From positions 1-62,670 of the forward strand of contig JAMFSN010000104.1 of NCBI GenBank assembly GCA_026225295.1: a DNA stretch of 62,670 nucleotides. The letters are read 5' to 3'. The notes under the pieces were generated by a model. That model ran no database searches and was not told the origin of the DNA. It saw only the letters and a list, made by a program, of their open reading frames with translations. This document shows, piece by piece, positions 40,028 to 54,657 of the stretch. The first letter of the stretch is position 1. Every line of letters starts with the position of its first letter. Both the position numbers and the translations under genes were made by a program. The stretch is from Frankia alni. GTDB taxonomy: Bacteria > Actinomycetota > Actinomycetes > Frankiales > Frankiaceae.

Positions 40028-41116
40028 TCAGGGGTGCTGCCAGACGTTGAGATAGTCGATGTCCATGGAGGCCGGGAAGGGGGTGCTGCCGGTGATTCCG
40101 CCTTTCAGCGGACCCCAGCTTCCACCGACCGAGAGGTTCGCGATGATGTAGAACGGGTAATTCTTGATCGCGGCCGGGGTGGTGATCGTGTTTCCCATCT
40201 TCTGGCCGTCGAGATACCAGGTCAGGCCGGTCGGCTCCCAGTCCAGACCGTATACATGCCAGTTGGTCGCCGCGTTGGAGATCGTCGCGACCTGCGGAGA
40301 GCAGGGATGGCCGCAGCCACCACCGGCACCACCCCAATGAGCGGTGAAATGGTAATCGCCCGGATCGTTGCCGGGGATCTCGAAAACGTCGTACTCGCCG
40401 GTGTCGGGCCAGGCCTTCCCACCTTGCTGCTGTTGTTCGGGTAGCTCCCACAGTGACGGCCAGTAGCCGTCACCGGCCGGTATCCGAACCCGACCCTGGT
40501 AAAAGCCGTACGTATAGGAGAAGCCTGTGTAATTGGCCGGCTTCGGACCGAATGTTGCCGGCCACGGGCCGGTCGCGACCATACCGGAACGGATCTGCCC
40601 GGCGGTGCGGGTCGCGGTCAGGTGCAGTTGCCCGCCGGATACCGTCACATTGGGGTTATCGGTGGTCGCGGTGTTGAACGTTTCCTGCTCGTTGTTGTAC
40701 GGCACACAGGAAGCCCGGAACGACGGGTTGCACAACTGCCAGTGGGTCAGGTCCAGGCTTGTCCCGTTGAAGTTATCGCCGAACGCCAGCTTCCAGTTGC
40801 CGGGGATTCCGGGACCGCCCGCCCCCGCCGGATCGCCGCCCTCGGGCGGCGTCGGCGCTCCCACCGGGGTGGTCGCCGCGGTGCCGGGAGCGGTCGGGAC
40901 CGCCGTCGGTGTCGCCGTGGACGCGGGTGTCGATCCGTCCGGAGCGGTGATGACGGCGGCCTGGTTCTGAGCCACGGCACCAGCCGTCGGACCGGCGGCC
41001 GGAGCGGCGGTGAGGGTGTGGGCCGGGCCGTTCCTCGCTCCGGCCAGCCCGGCGGCGGTCGCCAGCGTCACCGCGGCGGTCACCGCGACGCACCGGCCCG
41101 CGGTCGCGCGGTTCAT
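40028..41116 (-). CDS. Secreted glycoside hydrolase family 16 (beta-glucanase type)
   Basis: A 362-residue enzyme. An N-terminal signal or anchor helix (VAVTAAVTLATAAGLAG) and a Pro/Thr/Ala linker (about 40-105) lead to the GH16 jelly roll. The catalytic motif is intact: GEYDVFE with nucleophile Glu241, Asp243 and acid/base Glu246. WELPEQ, YHFTAHWGG and GLTWYLDGQKMG are also family-typical. GH16 enzymes cut beta-1,3/1,4-glucans or related polysaccharides. It is the last gene of the operon, with an ATGA overlap to the GH16-GH26 gene. It could trim a self-made polysaccharide as well as digest external glucan. Confidence 0.93.
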   Translation of the reverse strand: MNRATAGRCVAVTAAVTLATAAGLAGARNGPAHTLTAAPAAGPTAGAVAQNQAAVITAPDGSTPASTATPTAVPTAPGTAATTPVGAPTPPEGGDPAGAGGPGIPGNWKLAFGDNFNGTSLDLTHWQLCNPSFRASCVPYNNEQETFNTATTDNPNVTVSGGQLHLTATRTAGQIRSGMVATGPWPATFGPKPANYTGFSYTYGFYQGRVRIPAGDGYWPSLWELPEQQQQGGKAWPDTGEYDVFEIPGNDPGDYHFTAHWGGAGGGCGHPCSPQVATISNAATNWHVYGLDWEPTGLTWYLDGQKMGNTITTPAAIKNYPFYIIANLSVGGSWGPLKGGITGSTPFPASMDIDYLNVWQHP

Positions 41117-43731
41117 ACGCCGGCCTTCCCGAACAGCGCCTTGTACCGGGCCGCAGCCTGCGGGTTCTGTTTTCCGTTGACGAGCGACGAGCAGACATTC
41201 CCGGCGTCCGGATCGTCGAAGTAGGCCTCATACCCCATGACGTCCTGGTTGGCCAGGAAGGTGTTGTACATCTGCTGGATGTAAAGCGGGTTGTCGCCGC
41301 CCCCACCGCTTGAGCTGCAGGACGCGACCCCCCACTCGCCGACACCGAGTTTCTTGCCGTTGGCCCGGGCGAAGGCGATCGCCTTGCACATCCCGTTCAG
41401 GCCCGCGCACTGGGCGTTGAACGCGGTCGCGGTGGGCGACGCCGGCGACATGTCGTAGGAGTCGATGCCGACGTAGTCCACATACGCGTTGCCGGGGTAG
41501 GCGTCATACGGGTTTCCGCTGGCCGGCACCTGTGAACCGTGGGCCGTGAACGTCCAGTCCATCTGAACCTTCGGGTCCGTCGACCGGAGCGCGGTCGCCG
41601 CATGCTGGTAGCAGCCCTTGAATGCAGCGCCGCTGGCGTCGGAATGCCAGTACATCCAGGTTCCGTTGAACTCCCAGCCCAGTCGGATGATCGCGTCGGC
41701 CCGGTTATGGGCGACGAGGAAACTGCCCAGTTTCCGCCAGTCGTCGTCATAGGCCCCGGTCGCGCATTCCGCATTGCTGCCGGCGCCCTGCGGGAACGTC
41801 GGCACCGACAACACCAGTCGGCCGGCGAAACCGCGGTACGTGTCGACCGGCCACACGGGATTGGTGATGCCGGCCCAGCCCTGGTCGCGGGTGACGTAGG
41901 CCTGCACGAGGTCGATCGGTCGCCCCCGCCAGGTGCCGAACGCCTGCGCCCCGCCCGGATCGGTGGTCGTCCAGACCCCGGACATCCACGGCAGCCCGGA
42001 CAGACTGCCCGTGGTCGTCGTCGTGGGTGCGGTCGCCGCCGGAGTTCCGGTTGCGGCGGCGGTCGGGGGCGGACCTGCGGCGGTCGGCGCCGGACTCACG
42101 CCGGCGGTCGCGGTCGGCGCGTAGTACCGCACGTAGTCGACCGTCATCGTCTGCGGCCAGGTGCCGCTGGTCGCCGGGCCGTTGGTGTCGACCACCGCGA
42201 CGTCGAGCAACGCGGAGACGTCGGTGTCCCAGAGCCAGACCGGTACCTGGGCGCGGTCGATCCGGTGGACCACCTGCCCGTCGAGATACCAGGTCAGCCC
42301 GGCGGACGACCAGTTGAGCGCGTAGGTGTGAAAGGCGTCGGCGAGATTCCCCGTCGTGGTGGTCGTCCCGCCGTCGTTCCACCCGGACTGCCAGGGGGCG
42401 CCGGACCGGTCGATGCCGTGCAGGCTGGTGTGGACGGCGTTCGGTTGGTCGGAGGTGACCTCGGCGATGTCGGTCTCGCCGGCGGCCGGCCAGCCGACTG
42501 TCCCCAGATTGCTACCCAGCAGCCAGAACGCCGGGAACGCGCCGCCGCCGGTCGGCATCTTGATGCGGGCCTGGAGCGTCCCGTACCGGAAGGTGCGCAG
42601 CCCGGTGGTCTCCACCCGGCCGGAGCTGTACGCCGTCCCGCCGCAGGATGGTTCCCGGCGGGCGCTCAGTTGGAGATCGCCCCGGCCGTCGAGGGCCACG
42701 TTGCGCGGGTCGTAGCACTCGAGTTCGGCGGTGCCCTTGGCCACGCCCGACTCGACTTTCCAGTTCGTGGCGTCCGGTGGGGCGCCGGTCGCGCCGTTGA
42801 AGTCGTCGGACCAGAGCAACTGGCCGCCACCGGCCTCTGGCGCGGTCGGCCCCGGTGCCGCCGCGGCCGGTGCGGTCGAAGCAGTCGGCGGGGTGACCGC
42901 CATCGGTGTGGGGTTGCCCGCGGCCGGTGCGGTCGCGGTCCCCCGGTCCGCGCGCAGCGGCACCAGCGTCGAACCGATCGGGGACGGCGTCGCCGCCGGG
43001 TTGGACGTGGCCGTCGGACCCGGCGTGGCCGTCGGGCTGGGCGTGGCCGTCGGGCTGGACGTGGCCGTTGGGCCCGGCGTGGCCGTCGGACCCGGCGTGG
43101 CCGTTGGGCTGGGCGTGGCCGTCGGATCGGTGCTTGGCGCGGCCCCGGTCGGCGACGGTGGCGCCGTCCGGCTCCCACCGGTCGGCGCGTCGGCCGCCCC
43201 GACCTGGGCGGCCAGACCGGTGGCCGTGAGCGCGGGCCCGGCCACCAGCGGACTGCTGCTCGCGGTGCCGGTCGGGGTCGTGGCGGTGGCGGTCGGGGCC
43301 AGATCGCCGGCGGCGCCGCCGGCCGAGGTGCCGTTCACGGCCCGGCAGGCCTGCGGCTCACACCCGTAGGCGGCCAGGTAGGAACCGTGAATGCTCAGGT
43401 TCGCGTTCCCCGTACCAGCCTGCACGACGAACCCGCCCGCGTGCGGCGTCGCGGTGGCCGGCACCGGCGAGGTCAGTCCCGCGTCGGGGGTCGACGCCTC
43501 CACCGTGACCTGGGCCGGGGTCCCCGACAGACCCGTGACCGCGCACTGGCCGGCGGCGTCCGTTCGACAGCTGAACGTCCCGAACCGGCTGTCGGCCTGG
43601 GCCGGGGTGGACCGGCTGATCTCCAGAACCACGACCGCGACGAGGGTGAGCGTGACGGCGGCCGCGACGACGCCGAGCGTCCGGCGGTGCCGCTCGAACT
43701 GCCACGCCGCCCCCGTCACGATCCGGTTCAT
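41113..43731 (-). CDS. Double glycoside hydrolase, GH16 plus GH26-like, membrane-anchored
   Basis: An 872-residue protein. A single N-terminal membrane helix (about 18-38) is followed by a Cys-containing domain of unknown fold (45-130, FGTFSCRTDAAGQCAVTGLS) and a Pro/Thr spacer of PTATPG/PTATPS repeats (about 200-260). A GH16 domain (about 305-545) has the active motif GETDIAE (Glu419, Asp421, Glu424). A second spacer leads to a GH26-like domain (about 585-872) with acid/base Glu687 in LGWEFNG and nucleophile candidate Glu799 in GVGEWGV. GH26 includes beta-mannanases and mixed-linkage glucanases. ATGA overlaps tie it to the giant Ser/Thr-rich gene before and the GH16 gene after. Two different active sites on one wall-spanning stalk is an unusual design. 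Confidence 0.9.
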   Translation of the reverse strand: MNRIVTGAAWQFERHRRTLGVVAAAVTLTLVAVVVLEISRSTPAQADSRFGTFSCRTDAAGQCAVTGLSGTPAQVTVEASTPDAGLTSPVPATATPHAGGFVVQAGTGNANLSIHGSYLAAYGCEPQACRAVNGTSAGGAAGDLAPTATATTPTGTASSSPLVAGPALTATGLAAQVGAADAPTGGSRTAPPSPTGAAPSTDPTATPSPTATPGPTATPGPTATSSPTATPSPTATPGPTATSNPAATPSPIGSTLVPLRADRGTATAPAAGNPTPMAVTPPTASTAPAAAAPGPTAPEAGGGQLLWSDDFNGATGAPPDATNWKVESGVAKGTAELECYDPRNVALDGRGDLQLSARREPSCGGTAYSSGRVETTGLRTFRYGTLQARIKMPTGGGAFPAFWLLGSNLGTVGWPAAGETDIAEVTSDQPNAVHTSLHGIDRSGAPWQSGWNDGGTTTTTGNLADAFHTYALNWSSAGLTWYLDGQVVHRIDRAQVPVWLWDTDVSALLDVAVVDTNGPATSGTWPQTMTVDYVRYYAPTATAGVSPAPTAAGPPPTAAATGTPAATAPTTTTTGSLSGLPWMSGVWTTTDPGGAQAFGTWRGRPIDLVQAYVTRDQGWAGITNPVWPVDTYRGFAGRLVLSVPTFPQGAGSNAECATGAYDDDWRKLGSFLVAHNRADAIIRLGWEFNGTWMYWHSDASGAAFKGCYQHAATALRSTDPKVQMDWTFTAHGSQVPASGNPYDAYPGNAYVDYVGIDSYDMSPASPTATAFNAQCAGLNGMCKAIAFARANGKKLGVGEWGVASCSSSGGGGDNPLYIQQMYNTFLANQDVMGYEAYFDDPDAGNVCSSLVNGKQNPQAAARYKALFGKAGV
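43011..43125 (-). repeat. 18-nt coding repeats of the Pro/Thr spacer
   Basis: About seven imperfect copies encode alternating PTATPG and PTATPS units in the GH16-GH26 protein. This is a flexible, probably glycosylated stalk whose length may vary between strains. Confidence 0.85.
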
Positions 43732-46700
43732 GTCGCCGGGCCGCCGCTATCGGTCGGACTGGCCGATGACCCGGTGGTCGTGATGCTGGAGGCGCTGGTC
43801 GTCGAGCCCGATTTCGCGCTCGTCGTCGCGCTGGTGGTGGCGGCCGCGGTTCCCTTGGTCGCGCTGGTGGTGCCGGCCCCGGTTCCCTTGGTCGCGCTGG
43901 TCGATCCGGCCGCGTCCGCGGCGTGGCTGACCGGGGCCGCCAGGCCCGGTCCCGGCGGTGGCCCGGGGAGATCGCCGTGCTGGCTCGGGGTGGTCACCGG
44001 GCTGGTCGGCGACGGGGTGGTCACCGGGCTGGTCGGCGGCGCGGTGGTCGCCGTCGCCTGCTTACTTCCTACGGTCGACGGTCCGGCGCTGGTCGGGGTG
44101 GGGCTCACCGTGCTGGCCGCCGCGTGGTGGGAGCCGTGCTGGTGGGTGCTGTCCTGCTGGGCGGTGTTGCTCTGCTGGGCGGTGCTGCTCTGCTGGGCGG
44201 TGCTGCTCTGCTGGGCGGTGCTGCTCTGCGGGGCGGTGCTGCTCTGCGGGGCGGTGCCCGACCCGGCCGCGCTGCTCTGGTTGCCGGTGGTCGGGGTGGC
44301 CGAAATCGCCGGGGCGGAATGGTGCGTCGACTCGTGGTTGGACGGTTGGCTGACCGCCGCGGTGCTCGTCCCGGCCGTCCCGGAATGGGCGTGGTGGGAG
44401 GTTTTCGACGATCCGGTGGTGGCCCCCGACGACGTCGAACCGCTGGTCGGTGCGCTCTGCGAGCCGGCCGACGCGGTCGACGTGGTCGAGCTACCGGTCG
44501 ACCCGTGACTGCTCGGCGTGGTGCTGGCCGGCTGGCTGCTCGACGACGAGCTGCTGGTGCCGGCCGGTTGAACGGGCGCGGTGCCCGTCGTCGTGGTCGA
44601 GCTGTGATGACCCGCCCCGGTCTTCAGCAGGCCGGAGCCCGCCGTCGGGTTGGGCGGGGCGGACCCGGCGCTCGTCGAACCGGTCTTCTCGGCGGTGGTG
44701 CCGGAGCCGACCGAACTGGTCGCCGCCGTGGACGTCGACGGTGTGGTGTCCGGCTGGCCGGTGGAGGCGGTCTTCGACCCGCCGCCGGTTCCCGCCGTCG
44801 CGGACTGCGCCGCCGCGCTCGTCAAGCCCGTCGTGGCCGACGTACCGGCTGACCCGTTCGTCGGGGAGCCGCCACTCGCCGTACCGGTCTCGATGGCGTG
44901 GCTCCCCGTCGAAGAGGTACTGGTCGTCGGGTGGGACGAGGTGGTCGCCGGGCTCCCGGCCGCGTGGGAGTTCGAAACAGATTCCTTCGACGGGGACGCG
45001 GTCGACGTCGACGTGGTCGCCGGGGACGTGGTCGACGGGGACGTGGTCGACGTCGAGCTCGTCGGCGCGGAGGACAAGGCCGCGAACGGCGAGACCGAGG
45101 ACCGGGCCCGGACCGTCGAGGTTCCTGACGGCGATCCGCTCGATCCGGTCGCGCTCGAGTCAGCGGCGCTCGATTTGGTCGCGCTCGACGTCACCGGGGA
45201 ACTCGTTGTGGACGAGGCAGCGACGGAGGTCGGCGTGGTCGAAGCGGGGGCTGAGGCTGCGGTTCCGAGTGTGGCGGGCACGCTGATCACGTGGCCCAGG
45301 TCCGCGAACCGGGTTGCGGATGCGCTCGTCGTGCCCGAGCCGCTGTCGGACGACGACGACCCGCCCGGGGCGGCCGCTCGCGGGACGGAGTCAGCTCCCG
45401 GGAGCTTGAGCACGGAGATGTGAACGGCCGGAGCCGCGACCTCGGGGGCAGCGACCTTCGGAGCCGTGACCTTCGGAGCGGTGACCTCGGGGGCCAAGAT
45501 TTCGGGGGCCAAGATTTCGGGGACATGGATCTCGGGAGCGGTGACCCGCGGCGCCGCAACCTCCGGAAGCTTGATGGTCGGGGCTTCGAGTGCCGGGCGC
45601 CGGCCCGGGGCGCGCGGCGTGAGGTGAACGGGTCCGGACGGCCGGGCCAGCGACTGGGACGGGGCCGACATCGGGGCCAGCCCGCGGGCAACCGGTGCGG
45701 TGATCGGCGTGATCGGCGTGACCGCCCGGCGGCCGGGAGGCCGCGGGGTCAGCGCGCTGTCCGGCGTGAGGTCGGGGAAGCCGCTGGCGCCGGCCAGCGC
45801 GCCCCCGAGAACCTCGCCCAGCACCCCTCCGGTCGGGCTCGCCGACGGGCGGGCCGCCGCACCGTCGATGGTGGTAGCGGGGTCGGGCCCGTTACTGGCC
45901 GCAATCGCGGTCGGCACGCCGGTCCGGGTCAGCACCGGGCCGCTCGCCGGATCGGTGGTGGTCCGCCCGCCCTCCCGATCGATGGGCGGGGTCAGCGGCA
46001 GGGTCGGGATCCCGGTGCCGGCCGCCGCGTCGACGACCTGCCGGGCCAGCACGGTGCCGTTGGCCGGGATGGCCGGCAGGGGCGCGGTGGTGGCCTGGGT
46101 CACGTACGGGCCGAGCTGCCGAACCTGGTCGGACAGCAGCGCCTGCTGGCTCTCCAGCAGCTGGGACCGCTCGTCGAGGCCGCTCAGCAACCCGGTCGGC
46201 CCGGCCGACGGGGTGGCGGTCGTCTCGACCGTGCGCAGCGCGGCCAGCTGGCGTCGGGTGTCGGCGAGATTGCTCGATGCCTGGTGGTAGGCGTCGTAAG
46301 CCGCGAGGTCGGCCTGCAGCATCGCCTGTTCCCGCGACAACTGCGACTCGAGCCGGTCGAGCTGCTGGGCGGTCGTCGCGGCCGTTCCGGTCCGGCGGCT
46401 GGCCGGAGCCTTCTTCCAGGTCGCCTGGGCCCGTCGGATGATCGTGAGCTGCGTCGAGATGGCGGTCAGCTGGTGGCGAGCCGTCAACGGCCATTCGCGG
46501 GCCGCGAGGCTGATGGAACTCGGGGCGATCGCCGGTCCGGCGACCGGCGCGTCGGGCAGGGTCATGCCGCGCCAGACGACGATCGTGGTGCCGGCCACGA
46601 GGGTGGCGGCCCCTACCGTCGCGGTCACCCGGCGGCGGCGGGTCCGGCGCCGGTTGGCACGGTAAGCGGCCAACTTCGCCGCCCGTCGGCTTCGCCGGTC

Positions 46701-47105
46701 GCCACCCTCCGCACCGTCCTGGCCCGGCTCGCGTTCCGGCCCGGTCTCCGACGCCGACCCGTCGTCCGACACCAACCCGGACTCCGACTCCGGGACGACG
46801 GCGGTCGCCCCGTCGGGCGGCCAGTCCAGGCTGGTCAGCGGCTCCGAGGCCTGGTCCTCGTCGCCCACCAGCCGGAGGATCGATGGGGACGGGGGAGCCG
46901 CCCACGGCGACGTTTCGGCGGTGGGGGTCGTCCCGGCCGATGACCGGGGCGACCCGGCGCCCTCGCCGCTCACGTGCCGGGCCGCGCGCCGATGCTCCGG
47001 CGAACAGAACTCGACCGGCGGCGTCACTTCCTTGTCGCACCACGGCTGAAACCCACAGTAACTCGGCATCGTGCCTTTCCCCGACGACCGTTGATGAATC
47101 TGCAT
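43728..47105 (-). CDS. Giant Ser/Thr-rich single-pass membrane protein with N-terminal Cys/His motif
   Basis: A 1125-residue protein of unknown function. Close to the N-terminus is a metal-binding-like motif, C17-x5-C23-x10-C34-x3-H38 (YCGFQPWC ... FCSPEH). An acidic stretch and a strongly basic segment (RRRTRRRRV) follow, then one transmembrane helix (about 160-179). Outside is a Gln/Leu-rich coiled coil (about 205-330) and more than 700 residues of low-complexity Ser, Thr, Ala and Pro with several repeat types (APEIL/APKVT; AQQSST). This resembles a mucin-like wall-spanning stalk with a cytoplasmic zinc-finger-like end. Start ATG 47105 (GGAAAG upstream); ATG 47069 is also possible. It is the first gene of an operon with two glycosidases. 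No relative is recognised. Confidence 0.8.
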   Translation of the reverse strand: MQIHQRSSGKGTMPSYCGFQPWCDKEVTPPVEFCSPEHRRAARHVSGEGAGSPRSSAGTTPTAETSPWAAPPSPSILRLVGDEDQASEPLTSLDWPPDGATAVVPESESGLVSDDGSASETGPEREPGQDGAEGGDRRSRRAAKLAAYRANRRRTRRRRVTATVGAATLVAGTTIVVWRGMTLPDAPVAGPAIAPSSISLAAREWPLTARHQLTAISTQLTIIRRAQATWKKAPASRRTGTAATTAQQLDRLESQLSREQAMLQADLAAYDAYHQASSNLADTRRQLAALRTVETTATPSAGPTGLLSGLDERSQLLESQQALLSDQVRQLGPYVTQATTAPLPAIPANGTVLARQVVDAAAGTGIPTLPLTPPIDREGGRTTTDPASGPVLTRTGVPTAIAASNGPDPATTIDGAAARPSASPTGGVLGEVLGGALAGASGFPDLTPDSALTPRPPGRRAVTPITPITAPVARGLAPMSAPSQSLARPSGPVHLTPRAPGRRPALEAPTIKLPEVAAPRVTAPEIHVPEILAPEILAPEVTAPKVTAPKVAAPEVAAPAVHISVLKLPGADSVPRAAAPGGSSSSDSGSGTTSASATRFADLGHVISVPATLGTAASAPASTTPTSVAASSTTSSPVTSSATKSSAADSSATGSSGSPSGTSTVRARSSVSPFAALSSAPTSSTSTTSPSTTSPATTSTSTASPSKESVSNSHAAGSPATTSSHPTTSTSSTGSHAIETGTASGGSPTNGSAGTSATTGLTSAAAQSATAGTGGGSKTASTGQPDTTPSTSTAATSSVGSGTTAEKTGSTSAGSAPPNPTAGSGLLKTGAGHHSSTTTTGTAPVQPAGTSSSSSSSQPASTTPSSHGSTGSSTTSTASAGSQSAPTSGSTSSGATTGSSKTSHHAHSGTAGTSTAAVSQPSNHESTHHSAPAISATPTTGNQSSAAGSGTAPQSSTAPQSSTAQQSSTAQQSSTAQQSNTAQQDSTHQHGSHHAAASTVSPTPTSAGPSTVGSKQATATTAPPTSPVTTPSPTSPVTTPSQHGDLPGPPPGPGLAAPVSHAADAAGSTSATKGTGAGTTSATKGTAAATTSATTSAKSGSTTSASSITTTGSSASPTDSGGPAT
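44150..44257 (-). repeat. 18-nt tandem coding repeats (AQQSST units)
   Basis: About six head-to-tail copies of an 18-nt unit such as CTCTGCTGGGCGGTGCTG encode AQQSST or APQSST. Copies are nearly identical at DNA level, so recent expansion is likely. Confidence 0.88.
45440..45560 (-). repeat. 15-nt tandem coding repeats (APEIL / APKVT units)
   Basis: Eight or more copies of a 15-nt unit encode a pentapeptide of the form AP(E/K)(I/V)x. Adjacent copies (for example GGGGGCCAAGATTTC twice) are identical. This forms an extended Ala-Pro rod in the giant membrane protein. Confidence 0.85.
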
Positions 47106-47371: not shown

Positions 47372-48445
47372 TCACCCGGAGTAGGCCCGTCCCGGCAGGT
47401 CCCCCTCGGTGAGCGGTCGCAGGAGCTGGCCGCGCCCCCCGACCTTCGGAAGCAGGCCGTGCTGGGCCGCCGCCGCGCCCAGGCCGAAGCGCCCGGAGAC
47501 CCCGAGTTCCTCACACATCTGCTCGATGTCCCGGGTAATGGTCCGGACGTGTTTTCCGAGTCGTTCGGCGATGATCTTCTCGGTCAACCCGATCGACAGC
47601 AGTTCCAGCACCGCGCGCTTGCGCCGCTCGGTTTCCGACGCCGCGTCGTCGTCGTCATTTACCGGCCTGGCCTGCTCGTAGACCTGGTCGATCATGGTGG
47701 TGACGGCGGTGACGAGCGTCGGCGCCCGCAGCATGATCGCGCCATGGTTCATGTCCTGCGCGTCGACCGGGACCAGAGCGACCGACCGGTCGACCACCAC
47801 CGCGCGCATCGGCACCGCGTCGGTCTGCCGGACATCGCCCAGCGCACTGGTCGGGCCGGCCGGGTTCAGCCGTCGGATTTCGGCCAGCGCCTCCGCGGTG
47901 ATCGCCCCCCGCACCCGCAGGCCTTTCTCCCGGGCCCGAACCAGCTGCGCATTGATCGCCGAGCGGGCGGCCGGCGGGGTGGTCCCCAAGGTCATCCACA
48001 GCACTGACCGTTCCGCCTGTTGCACGACATCGGTGAGGCTCGACCACACCTCGCTGCCGCCGCTCACGGTTTCCTGGATCGCGGCCGGACCGGGCCGCCG
48101 ACCGGCCATGAATGCCCGGAACAATTCCGTATCGTAAAGCGCGGCCCGGGCCGACGCCAGGCGTGCCCGTTCCGCCATGAGGGTCGCTTCGTGGCGGGCA
48201 TGTTCGACGGCCATTACCTGTACCGGGTCCAGCGCTATCCAGCGATCGGCGCTGACCTCCCGGACCAGGTTCCGGGCGGCCAGGTGGCGTATCGCCGCCG
48301 CCACCTGGTCGTAACCCGTCCCGACCCATTCGGCCAGTTCGTCCACCCGGGAATGGGAATGCAATGCGATCGCCCGATAGACCTGTTCACTGAATGCATC
48401 CAGGCCCAGTTCCCCTGCCACCGCCGACCGCCCCATGTCACTCAC
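47372..48445 (-). CDS. TrmB-like/LuxR-type transcriptional regulator
   Basis: A 357-residue regulator. The N-terminal part has a TrmB-like winged helix (LGLDAFSEQVYRAIALHSHS and DQVAAAIRHLAARNLV). A phospholipase-D-like or sugar-sensing middle follows (VLWMTLGTTPPAARSAINAQ, GAIMLRAPTLV). The C-terminal LuxR-type helix-turn-helix is ELLSIGLTEKIIAERLGKHV near residues 285-325. This TrmB-LuxR mix is common in actinobacteria, often beside secreted or specialised-metabolite genes. It is 266 bp upstream of, and on the same strand as, the stalk/glycosidase operon, so it may control it. GTG 48445 is the listed start; ATG 48436 is an alternative. Confidence 0.87.
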   Translation of the reverse strand: MSDMGRSAVAGELGLDAFSEQVYRAIALHSHSRVDELAEWVGTGYDQVAAAIRHLAARNLVREVSADRWIALDPVQVMAVEHARHEATLMAERARLASARAALYDTELFRAFMAGRRPGPAAIQETVSGGSEVWSSLTDVVQQAERSVLWMTLGTTPPAARSAINAQLVRAREKGLRVRGAITAEALAEIRRLNPAGPTSALGDVRQTDAVPMRAVVVDRSVALVPVDAQDMNHGAIMLRAPTLVTAVTTMIDQVYEQARPVNDDDDAASETERRKRAVLELLSIGLTEKIIAERLGKHVRTITRDIEQMCEELGVSGRFGLGAAAAQHGLLPKVGGRGQLLRPLTEGDLPGRAYSG

Positions 48446-52960: not shown

Positions 52961-54544
52961 TCAGCTCAGATCTTTGGCCGTGGCCCAGGCCAGCACCGCT
53001 TTCGCGGCCTTGGCGTTGGCGCCGGTGTGGAGGCCGTTGGCCCACGATCGGGTGGCCGTCCACAGCGTCGTGTCGGCATCGGCGGGCGGCGGCGGGTTGG
53101 TGGGCGGCGGCGTCGGGGTCGTGCCGGAGCCGAGCGCGGCCAGCAGCTTCGAGCCGACCGGGCTCCCGAGCCCGGAGGCCGGGTCCCAACCCTTCCCGGC
53201 GGCGTAACCCTCGTTGTTGCCCGACGTGATGTCGGTGAAGGCGGTCGGCGTGGCGTAGGCCACCGTGGCCAGGTCGCCGACCGGCTTGCCGGTCAGTTGG
53301 ACCAGGCGCGCGACCAGCCCGGCCAGCAGCGGCGCGACCGCCGAGGTGCCCCCGATGACCCCGGATTTCCCGTCGACGACGACCTTGTAGCCCGACTCCG
53401 GGTCCGCGTTCCCGGTGATGTCGGGCAGCCCGCGGTAGGAGCCGACCGTGGCCGGCTGCCAGGTCGGGCGGTGGAACGTCTTCGAGTAGCCGCCGCCGGT
53501 GGCCGAGTTCGCGCCGTCGTCCCACACCGATTCGCCCGCCCACGCGCCGTTGCCGTCGATGGTGAGCCGCGTTCCGCCGCAGGCGATGACGTTGGGGGAG
53601 CTGGCCGGGAAGTCGGCGACCGGCCCGGACGTGCCGTCGTCGGCGCCCGAGTCGCCGGCCGCGGCGAGGACCACGATGCCGGCCGCCCGGGCGGTGGCAA
53701 AGGCCTGGTCGAAGGCCTGGAGGGACTGCGCGGTCCAGGACGATTCGGGGCCGCCCCAGCTGATGCTGATGGCGGCCGGCGCCGGGGTGGCCTTGGCCGC
53801 CGCGTTGATCGCGGCCAGGAAGCCGGCGTCGGTGTTCGGCCCGAAGTAGACAACCTGGGCGGCGCCCGGGGCGACCGCCCCGGCCACCTCGATGTCGAGC
53901 AGCACCTCACCGTCCGCGCCGTTCGGGTCCTGGCCGGGCTCGTTCGCGGCGCCCTGGACCCCGACCGCGGTGACCTTCGGGGTCGACAGGCCCAGCCCAC
54001 CGAAGTAGGTGGTCAGGTCGGACGTCCCGAACCCGCCGCCCAGCTCGATGATGGCGATGGTCTGGCCGCTGCCGGTGGCGGCCGGGAAGTCGTACGCCTT
54101 GGCCACCTGGACGGCGGTCAACCCGGCCGGCGCGGCGGCGGCCGGACGGAACCGCGGCCGGGCGGCGGGCCGCTCGTCCAGACCCAGCACGGCGACGACC
54201 GCGTCGTCCAACTCGTCGGGCAGGGCGACCGTGCCTTCCCGGCCCCGCAGCGTCCGGCCGTCGACGTCGTACAGGTTGAGGTCGGTGTCGAACGCCCGGG
54301 CGACCGCGCCGACATCACCCCGCAGTCGGACGGTGCGCGCCGCCGCGTCGGTCTCGACGACCTCGAGGCCGTGGTCCTTGGCGAACGTGTGGACCGCCGT
54401 CACGTCGGCGGGCGCGGCGTCGAGGTCGGCGCTGTCGGCCGAACCGGGGCGCAGCACCACCGTGACCGCCACGGTCTGCTCCGGCGGCACCGGTGACAAC
54501 GGGGTGCCGAGCGATGGTCGGTACGAGCCCTGGATCCGGCTCAT
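52961..54544 (-). CDS. S53 family serine-carboxyl peptidase (sedolisin/kumamolisin type)
   Basis: A 527-residue protease precursor. The pro-domain (about 20-125, with VVLRPG and VRLRGDVGAVARAFDTDL) precedes the catalytic domain. Catalytic residues are Glu213 and Asp217 (GEVLLDIEVAG), oxyanion Asp298 (AAAGDSGAD) and Ser401 (GGTSAVAP). The Ca-binding-type end DPASGLGSP is present. It lacks a signal peptide, as in kumamolisin. AGGAGGGGAC precedes the ATG at 54544, so the longer open frame is rejected. A Pro/Thr-rich linker and a 40-residue C-terminal tail are extra. Active in acidic conditions in characterised relatives. Confidence 0.94.
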   Translation of the reverse strand: MSRIQGSYRPSLGTPLSPVPPEQTVAVTVVLRPGSADSADLDAAPADVTAVHTFAKDHGLEVVETDAAARTVRLRGDVGAVARAFDTDLNLYDVDGRTLRGREGTVALPDELDDAVVAVLGLDERPAARPRFRPAAAAPAGLTAVQVAKAYDFPAATGSGQTIAIIELGGGFGTSDLTTYFGGLGLSTPKVTAVGVQGAANEPGQDPNGADGEVLLDIEVAGAVAPGAAQVVYFGPNTDAGFLAAINAAAKATPAPAAISISWGGPESSWTAQSLQAFDQAFATARAAGIVVLAAAGDSGADDGTSGPVADFPASSPNVIACGGTRLTIDGNGAWAGESVWDDGANSATGGGYSKTFHRPTWQPATVGSYRGLPDITGNADPESGYKVVVDGKSGVIGGTSAVAPLLAGLVARLVQLTGKPVGDLATVAYATPTAFTDITSGNNEGYAAGKGWDPASGLGSPVGSKLLAALGSGTTPTPPPTNPPPPADADTTLWTATRSWANGLHTGANAKAAKAVLAWATAKDLS

Positions 54545-54657
54545 GTCCCCTCCTGATGATGCGACGAGCAAGCAACCAACTACGGACAATCAGTGCAGAT
54601 CTTTGACGACCGGCAGTCGGTTGTCCACCTCTGGGCTGGTTGTCCGCCCCGCCCGGC

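Follow-up and report, generated by a model that had tools for sequence, protein, structure and literature searches.

A Frankia-family operon that couples GH16 and GH26 glycosidases to an orphan stalk-like protein and may act on beta-glucan

Why should a gene for a very long, Ser/Thr-rich membrane protein stand at the head of an operon for two glycosidases? The question is posed by three genes in the window (the whole stretch of DNA analysed here, 62,670 nucleotides), and it has several parts: which polysaccharide the enzymes would cut; whether the membrane protein shares in their work; and where the operon came from. The relevant features are the following.

47372 to 48445, minus strand: candidate regulator, 266 bp upstream of gene 1 in the same orientation; weak helix-turn-helix matches
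43728 to 47105, minus strand: gene 1, open reading frame of 1125 codons for a predicted membrane protein, an orphan
46959 to 47069, minus strand: Cys/His motif region of gene 1 (C-x5-C-x10-C-x3-H), a sequence motif without Pfam match, predicted to be cytoplasmic
43728 to 43731, minus strand: stop/start overlap of genes 1 and 2, ATGA, from the coding-strand sequence
41113 to 43731, minus strand: gene 2, open reading frame of 872 codons, GH16 plus GH26 by Pfam
41113 to 41116, minus strand: stop/start overlap of genes 2 and 3, ATGA, from the coding-strand sequence
40028 to 41116, minus strand: gene 3, open reading frame of 362 codons, GH16 by Pfam

On the coding strand the sequence at each junction is ATGA, just as the preliminary description of this locus had reported. 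Third-position GC is high in genes 1, 2 and 3 taken whole (0.81-0.90) and in segments along the full length of gene 1, repeats included (0.86-0.92), which argues that all three are coding, the low-complexity part of gene 1 among them. The start of gene 1 is ambiguous, with purine-rich sites upstream of both Met1 and Met13. Promoter and terminator scans of the operon returned nothing exceeding chance. The product of the upstream candidate regulator shows weak helix-turn-helix matches at both ends, TrmB-like in the N-terminal and LuxR-type in the C-terminal part; none reaches its curated cut-off.

The enzymes offer the firmest ground. Gene 2 encodes, in order, an N-terminal hydrophobic anchor or signal; a small domain (residues 45-140), for which neither Pfam nor the PDB gave a significant match; a Pro/Thr/Ser linker; a GH16 domain (about 303-538); a second linker; and a GH26 domain (about 575-872). 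Gene 3 is simpler, with an N-terminal hydrophobic segment, a Pro/Thr/Ala linker and a GH16 domain (about 106-360). The membrane or signal segments earlier proposed for both enzymes are present, one in each (hydropathy 2.59 in gene 2 and 1.80 in gene 3), and these hydrophobic N-termini together with the linkers fit export of both products. The N-terminal tethers could instead be cleaved signal peptides.

Both GH16 domains pass the Pfam model PF00722 (64.5 and 65.9 bits against a cut-off of 22) and keep the ExDxxE motif: ETDIAE at 419-424 in gene 2, with Glu419 and Glu424; and EYDVFE at 241-246 in gene 3, with Glu241 and Glu246. Their closest PDB relatives are beta-1,3-glucanases (3atg, E 9.5e-45; with the gene 3 family profile, 2vy0, E 3.7e-36), and by this proximity in sequence the domains are probably of laminarinase type. 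Named glucanases were considered as NCBIfam identities and rejected, their scores lying far under the cut-off.

The GH26 domain of gene 2 passes PF02156 with 33 bits against a cut-off of 20.2, in a match that spans only profile positions 153-262 of 311. Its catalytic residues are Glu687 (in WEFNG) and Glu799 (in GEWG); for all six catalytic glutamates of the two enzymes the positions first proposed proved exact and the motifs intact, and the assignment to GH16 and GH26 likewise stood, with scores above the cut-offs for both families. When a profile built from 15 frankial GH26 sequences was compared with known structures, lichenase 2vi0/2bvd came first (E 1.4e-11), followed by xylanase and then by mannanases, and both catalytic glutamates align with those of lichenase. 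The predicted structure (pLDDT 83, pTM 0.87) is a TIM-like barrel whose top PDB match is again a lichenase (2cip, E 2.5e-11). Throughout the frankial set, a Trp takes the place of the lichenase His that precedes the acid/base Glu, and the predicted fold matches known GH26 structures with a TM-score of about 0.6-0.7; because of these two features the domain is regarded as a divergent type to which the substrate of lichenase cannot safely be transferred. Gene 2 probably carries, then, an endo-glycanase of a divergent type nearest to lichenase.

These properties suggest a lineage-specific operon that cleaves beta-1,3- or mixed beta-1,3/1,4-linked glucan, with enzymes attached to the surface or secreted, a reading to which a probability of about 45% is attached. 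Gene 2 would be a two-headed enzyme in which a flexible linker joins a GH16 laminarinase-type endo-glucanase to a lichenase-like GH26, the whole being tethered or exported by way of its N-terminal hydrophobic segment; gene 3 would supply a second exported GH16 enzyme; and the main substrate of both would be an envelope glycan of the cell itself. We infer the linkage specificity, the retention at the surface and the action mainly on the cell's own envelope glycan.

An external substrate has to be weighed against this. GH16 laminarinases are classical scavenging enzymes, and the kinship of the GH16 domains with beta-1,3-glucanases would suit a nutritional or antagonistic role, in which beta-glucans from outside (fungal wall, plant callose, mixed-linkage glucan) are digested for food or attack while gene 1 holds the cell on its substrate. 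In the source genome, a draft 97.6% complete in 412 contigs, the matches to NifH are no more than weak (best E 5e-6); the organism is therefore taken as probably belonging to a non-nitrogen-fixing lineage of the Frankia family, and the seeming absence of NifH makes a free-living life likely. Against an external substrate stand the neighbours tested, which are a putative regulator, TetR regulators, a ferritin-like protein and a pair of ABC-2 type transporter genes; the closest transporter is the ABC-2 type pair, on the opposite strand; and Pfam recognised no sugar uptake system and no exo-glycosidase among these neighbours. The clustering of uptake functions and exo-glycosidases with endo-enzymes that defines a polysaccharide utilization locus was thus not seen among the neighbours tested. 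Frankia strains have, moreover, been judged in the available text of Mastronunzio et al. 2008 (PMC2266912) to have few plant-wall-degrading enzymes. An external substrate is accordingly considered rather unlikely.

The distribution of GH26 favours the cell's own glycan as substrate: every one of the 27 high-quality Frankia-family genomes contains the domain, and copy number goes up to 10 (range 0 to 10 among 35 genomes), with four copies in the source genome by the Pfam model. Named bacterial genomes searched with the GH26 domain alone yielded nothing. The profile of the gene 3 GH16 domain (GH16-B) found four loci in such genomes, all from Frankia (Frankia canadensis; Frankia sp. AgB1.9, AiPa1 and R82); at family level, the relatives are Frankia and sister lineages. 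Among the plasmid records listed, gene 2 was matched in its GH16 part only.

Where does gene 1 fit? Its product consists of a Cys/His motif (C17, C23, C34 and H38), an acidic linker, a strongly basic stretch, a single candidate membrane helix at about 160-178 (mean hydropathy 1.65, a borderline value), a segment at about 185-350 whose composition suggests helices, and, from about 350 to the end, a tail of more than 700 residues in which Ser, Thr, Ala, Pro and Gly predominate. The order of parts given in the preliminary description is thereby borne out, with a membrane helix that stays borderline. By the positive-inside rule, the Cys/His end would lie in the cytoplasm. A Cys/His end inside, one membrane helix and an ectodomain outside could make a signalling receptor or an anti-sigma-like protein, which would sense glycan outside the cell, relay the signal through the Cys/His end and so control both enzymes. 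This is highly improbable: gene 1 has no match in Pfam or NCBIfam, its Cys/His end included in the case of Pfam, and with these models no cytoplasmic sigma-binding or kinase domain is recognisable; no sigma factor was recognised beside the operon; and there is no relative in which conservation of the Cys/His residues might be seen. Sensing or relay by the Cys/His end, as first suggested, thus found backing neither in a domain match nor in a relative.

Relatives of gene 1 were sought with its less repetitive parts. The N-terminal 323 residues matched nothing among 57 other genomes, and the segment past the membrane helix nothing among 197 other genomes of the class; plasmid sequences also left the gene unmatched. 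The Cys/His motif has no relative among 35 family genomes; weak matches to it (E 0.03-1) were set aside as noise, the motif being retained in none. A very diverged relative could escape the first search pass, in which scoring was limited to the best candidates from each genome, and the genomes searched included no second member of the source strain's own genus.

In the favoured reading of a glucan-cleaving operon, the product of gene 1, coupled in translation to gene 2, would project from the membrane as a long brush, rich in Ser and Thr and probably glycosylated. That this brush keeps the enzymes in the envelope or sets their spacing there, as a stalk or scaffold, is only suggested; the function of gene 1 may be unrelated to the enzymes despite the overlap with gene 2.

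The catalytic domains themselves point to an origin close at hand. The window GH26 is 77-78% identical to a standard frankial-type GH26 on contig C8 of the same genome, with which it forms a fully supported pair in the tree. GH16-B and its paralogue on contig C359 share 89% identity and are likewise a supported pair. For the GH16 domain of gene 2 (GH16-A) the counterpart is a gene on contig C229, at 59% identity and also with the small N-terminal domain, although here the tree does not fix the exact branching. DNA similarity is restricted to the catalytic regions, and no match in the relatives searched spans both the GH16 and the GH26 domain. Since the closest relatives of the catalytic domains, or some of the closest, lie elsewhere in the genome, the operon looks as if it was assembled recently within its own lineage, by domain duplication and fusion.

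The preliminary description had staked its surface system on two points: a three-gene order conserved beyond this strain; and glycosidase domains that are active and of the named families. The first was not found, for neither a gene 1-like protein nor the gene order occurs in the 19 GH26 and 6 GH16-B neighbourhoods of related genomes, and gene 1 has no detectable relative; the second held, in Pfam scores and in catalytic motifs alike. A neighbouring helicase proved uninformative for synteny: one match of 59-68% in another family genome lies on a contig that otherwise has no gene correspondence with the window, and the remaining matches are distant paralogues (about 35-40%).

The standard frankial GH26 genes have a neighbourhood of their own, which is conserved and without obvious glycan role: nearly all of the 19 neighbourhoods (L038-L057) place the gene beside an Hsp70-like gene, recognised from its N-terminal sequence, and an HpcH-type lyase-like gene, assigned from weak NCBIfam matches only. 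On contig C8 of the source genome, too, the standard GH26 adjoins a lyase-like gene.

A related gene pair occurs in a virus. A provirus in Frankia genome G004 carries adjacent GH16-B and GH26 genes in that order, joined by a 4-base ATGA overlap (L096:7951-11036), with genes for tail protein, tape measure, portal and major head upstream; the IMG/VR viral contig with this GH16-B/GH26 pair is IMGVR_UViG_637000115_000001. The pair also carries a domain remotely related to the N-terminal one of gene 2. Sixteen further viral contigs contain a frankial-type GH26 (26-34% identity). In three of them GH26 is fused to, or lies just downstream of, a phrog_5313 protein (L136:1858-6846, L138:1348-6930, L141:1251-6699), and in two of these three (L136 and L141) tape-measure genes stand upstream. 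The GenBank phage genome set gave no GH26 match. The same provirus locus also encodes a tail protein (phrog_1887; L096:12196-15171); the part of this open reading frame before phrog_1887 resembles an S53/sedolisin-type peptidase and has 44% identity with the product of the window gene at 52961-54589.

Genes 2 and 3 might on this evidence descend from depolymerases of prophage tail modules that later gained bacterial tethers: the Frankia provirus holds the two families together with a remote relative of the gene 2 N-terminal domain, and other viral contigs hold frankial-type GH26 beside, or fused to, tail-region proteins. Such a descent is nonetheless quite unlikely, given that the window GH26 and GH16-B have their closest kin elsewhere in the same genome, whereas the provirus copies are more distant (46% identity for GH26 and 60% for GH16-B); that the vicinity of the window operon showed no recognisable phage genes; and that the phage may have acquired the genes from its host, gene flow in that direction being equally possible.

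The provirus bears on the substrate as well. Lying directly downstream of tail genes, its GH16-B/GH26 genes are a candidate pair of tail-borne depolymerases, and phage enzymes in the tail region usually degrade the surface polysaccharide of the host. That a related pair lies among the tail genes of a provirus of Frankia lends indirect support to action on the cell's own glycan, and by this analogy a frankial envelope glycan is a plausible substrate for the operon. A bolder extension is very unlikely, if attractive: gene 1 would be a new type of envelope scaffold in the Frankia family, a glycosylated brush that arrays the translationally coupled glucanases, and these would trim a frankial surface beta-glucan that is also attacked by phage tail enzymes, possibly removing or remodelling a phage receptor.

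If the enzymes do act on the cell's own glycan, a beta-glucan is predicted on the frankial envelope; many GH26-like proteins alongside few plant-wall-degrading enzymes would be explained; and bacterial and phage enzymes should cut one and the same polysaccharide, a target that the provirus pair makes testable. Otherwise, the operon is a modest case of domain shuffling, in which duplicated glycosidases were joined to an orphan stalk protein. The enzyme families and the expansion of GH26 in Frankia are already known. What is new is the orphan stalk, the fusion of GH16 with GH26 in a Frankia-family lineage, and the coupling of this fusion to another GH16; a literature search by the exact terms 'GH16-GH26' or 'GH26-GH16', a narrow test, returned no paper that uses either.

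Among known systems, the nearest in organism is the set of Frankia 'putative glycosidases' with a ManB/GH26-like domain, whose expansion was reported by Mastronunzio et al. 2008 (PMC2266912). These proteins come from the same family of organisms, and their GH26-like expansion is most likely the one to which the window set belongs. The available text gives a cell-envelope target as one possibility for that family, on other grounds, but does not describe the fusion to GH16, an operon with GH16 or the orphan stalk (PMC2266912).

Among enzymes of known structure, the GH16 laminarinase-type endo-beta-1,3-glucanases (PDB 3atg, 2hyk, 2vy0 and 3iln) align with the window GH16 domains over most of their length, ExDxxE included, although the window domains diverge in sequence and the gene 2 copy is fused to GH26. 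The GH26 lichenase Endoglucanase H (PDB 2vi0/2bvd/2cip) is the best match to the window GH26 by profile and by fold, with the catalytic Glu pair aligned, but identity is about 16% over the model and Trp replaces His before the acid/base residue. The provirus pair of IMGVR_UViG_637000115_000001 differs from the operon in being two separate proteins in the reverse order, with tail genes upstream and without the stalk; yet it presents the same two families in adjacent genes, joined by the same ATGA overlap.
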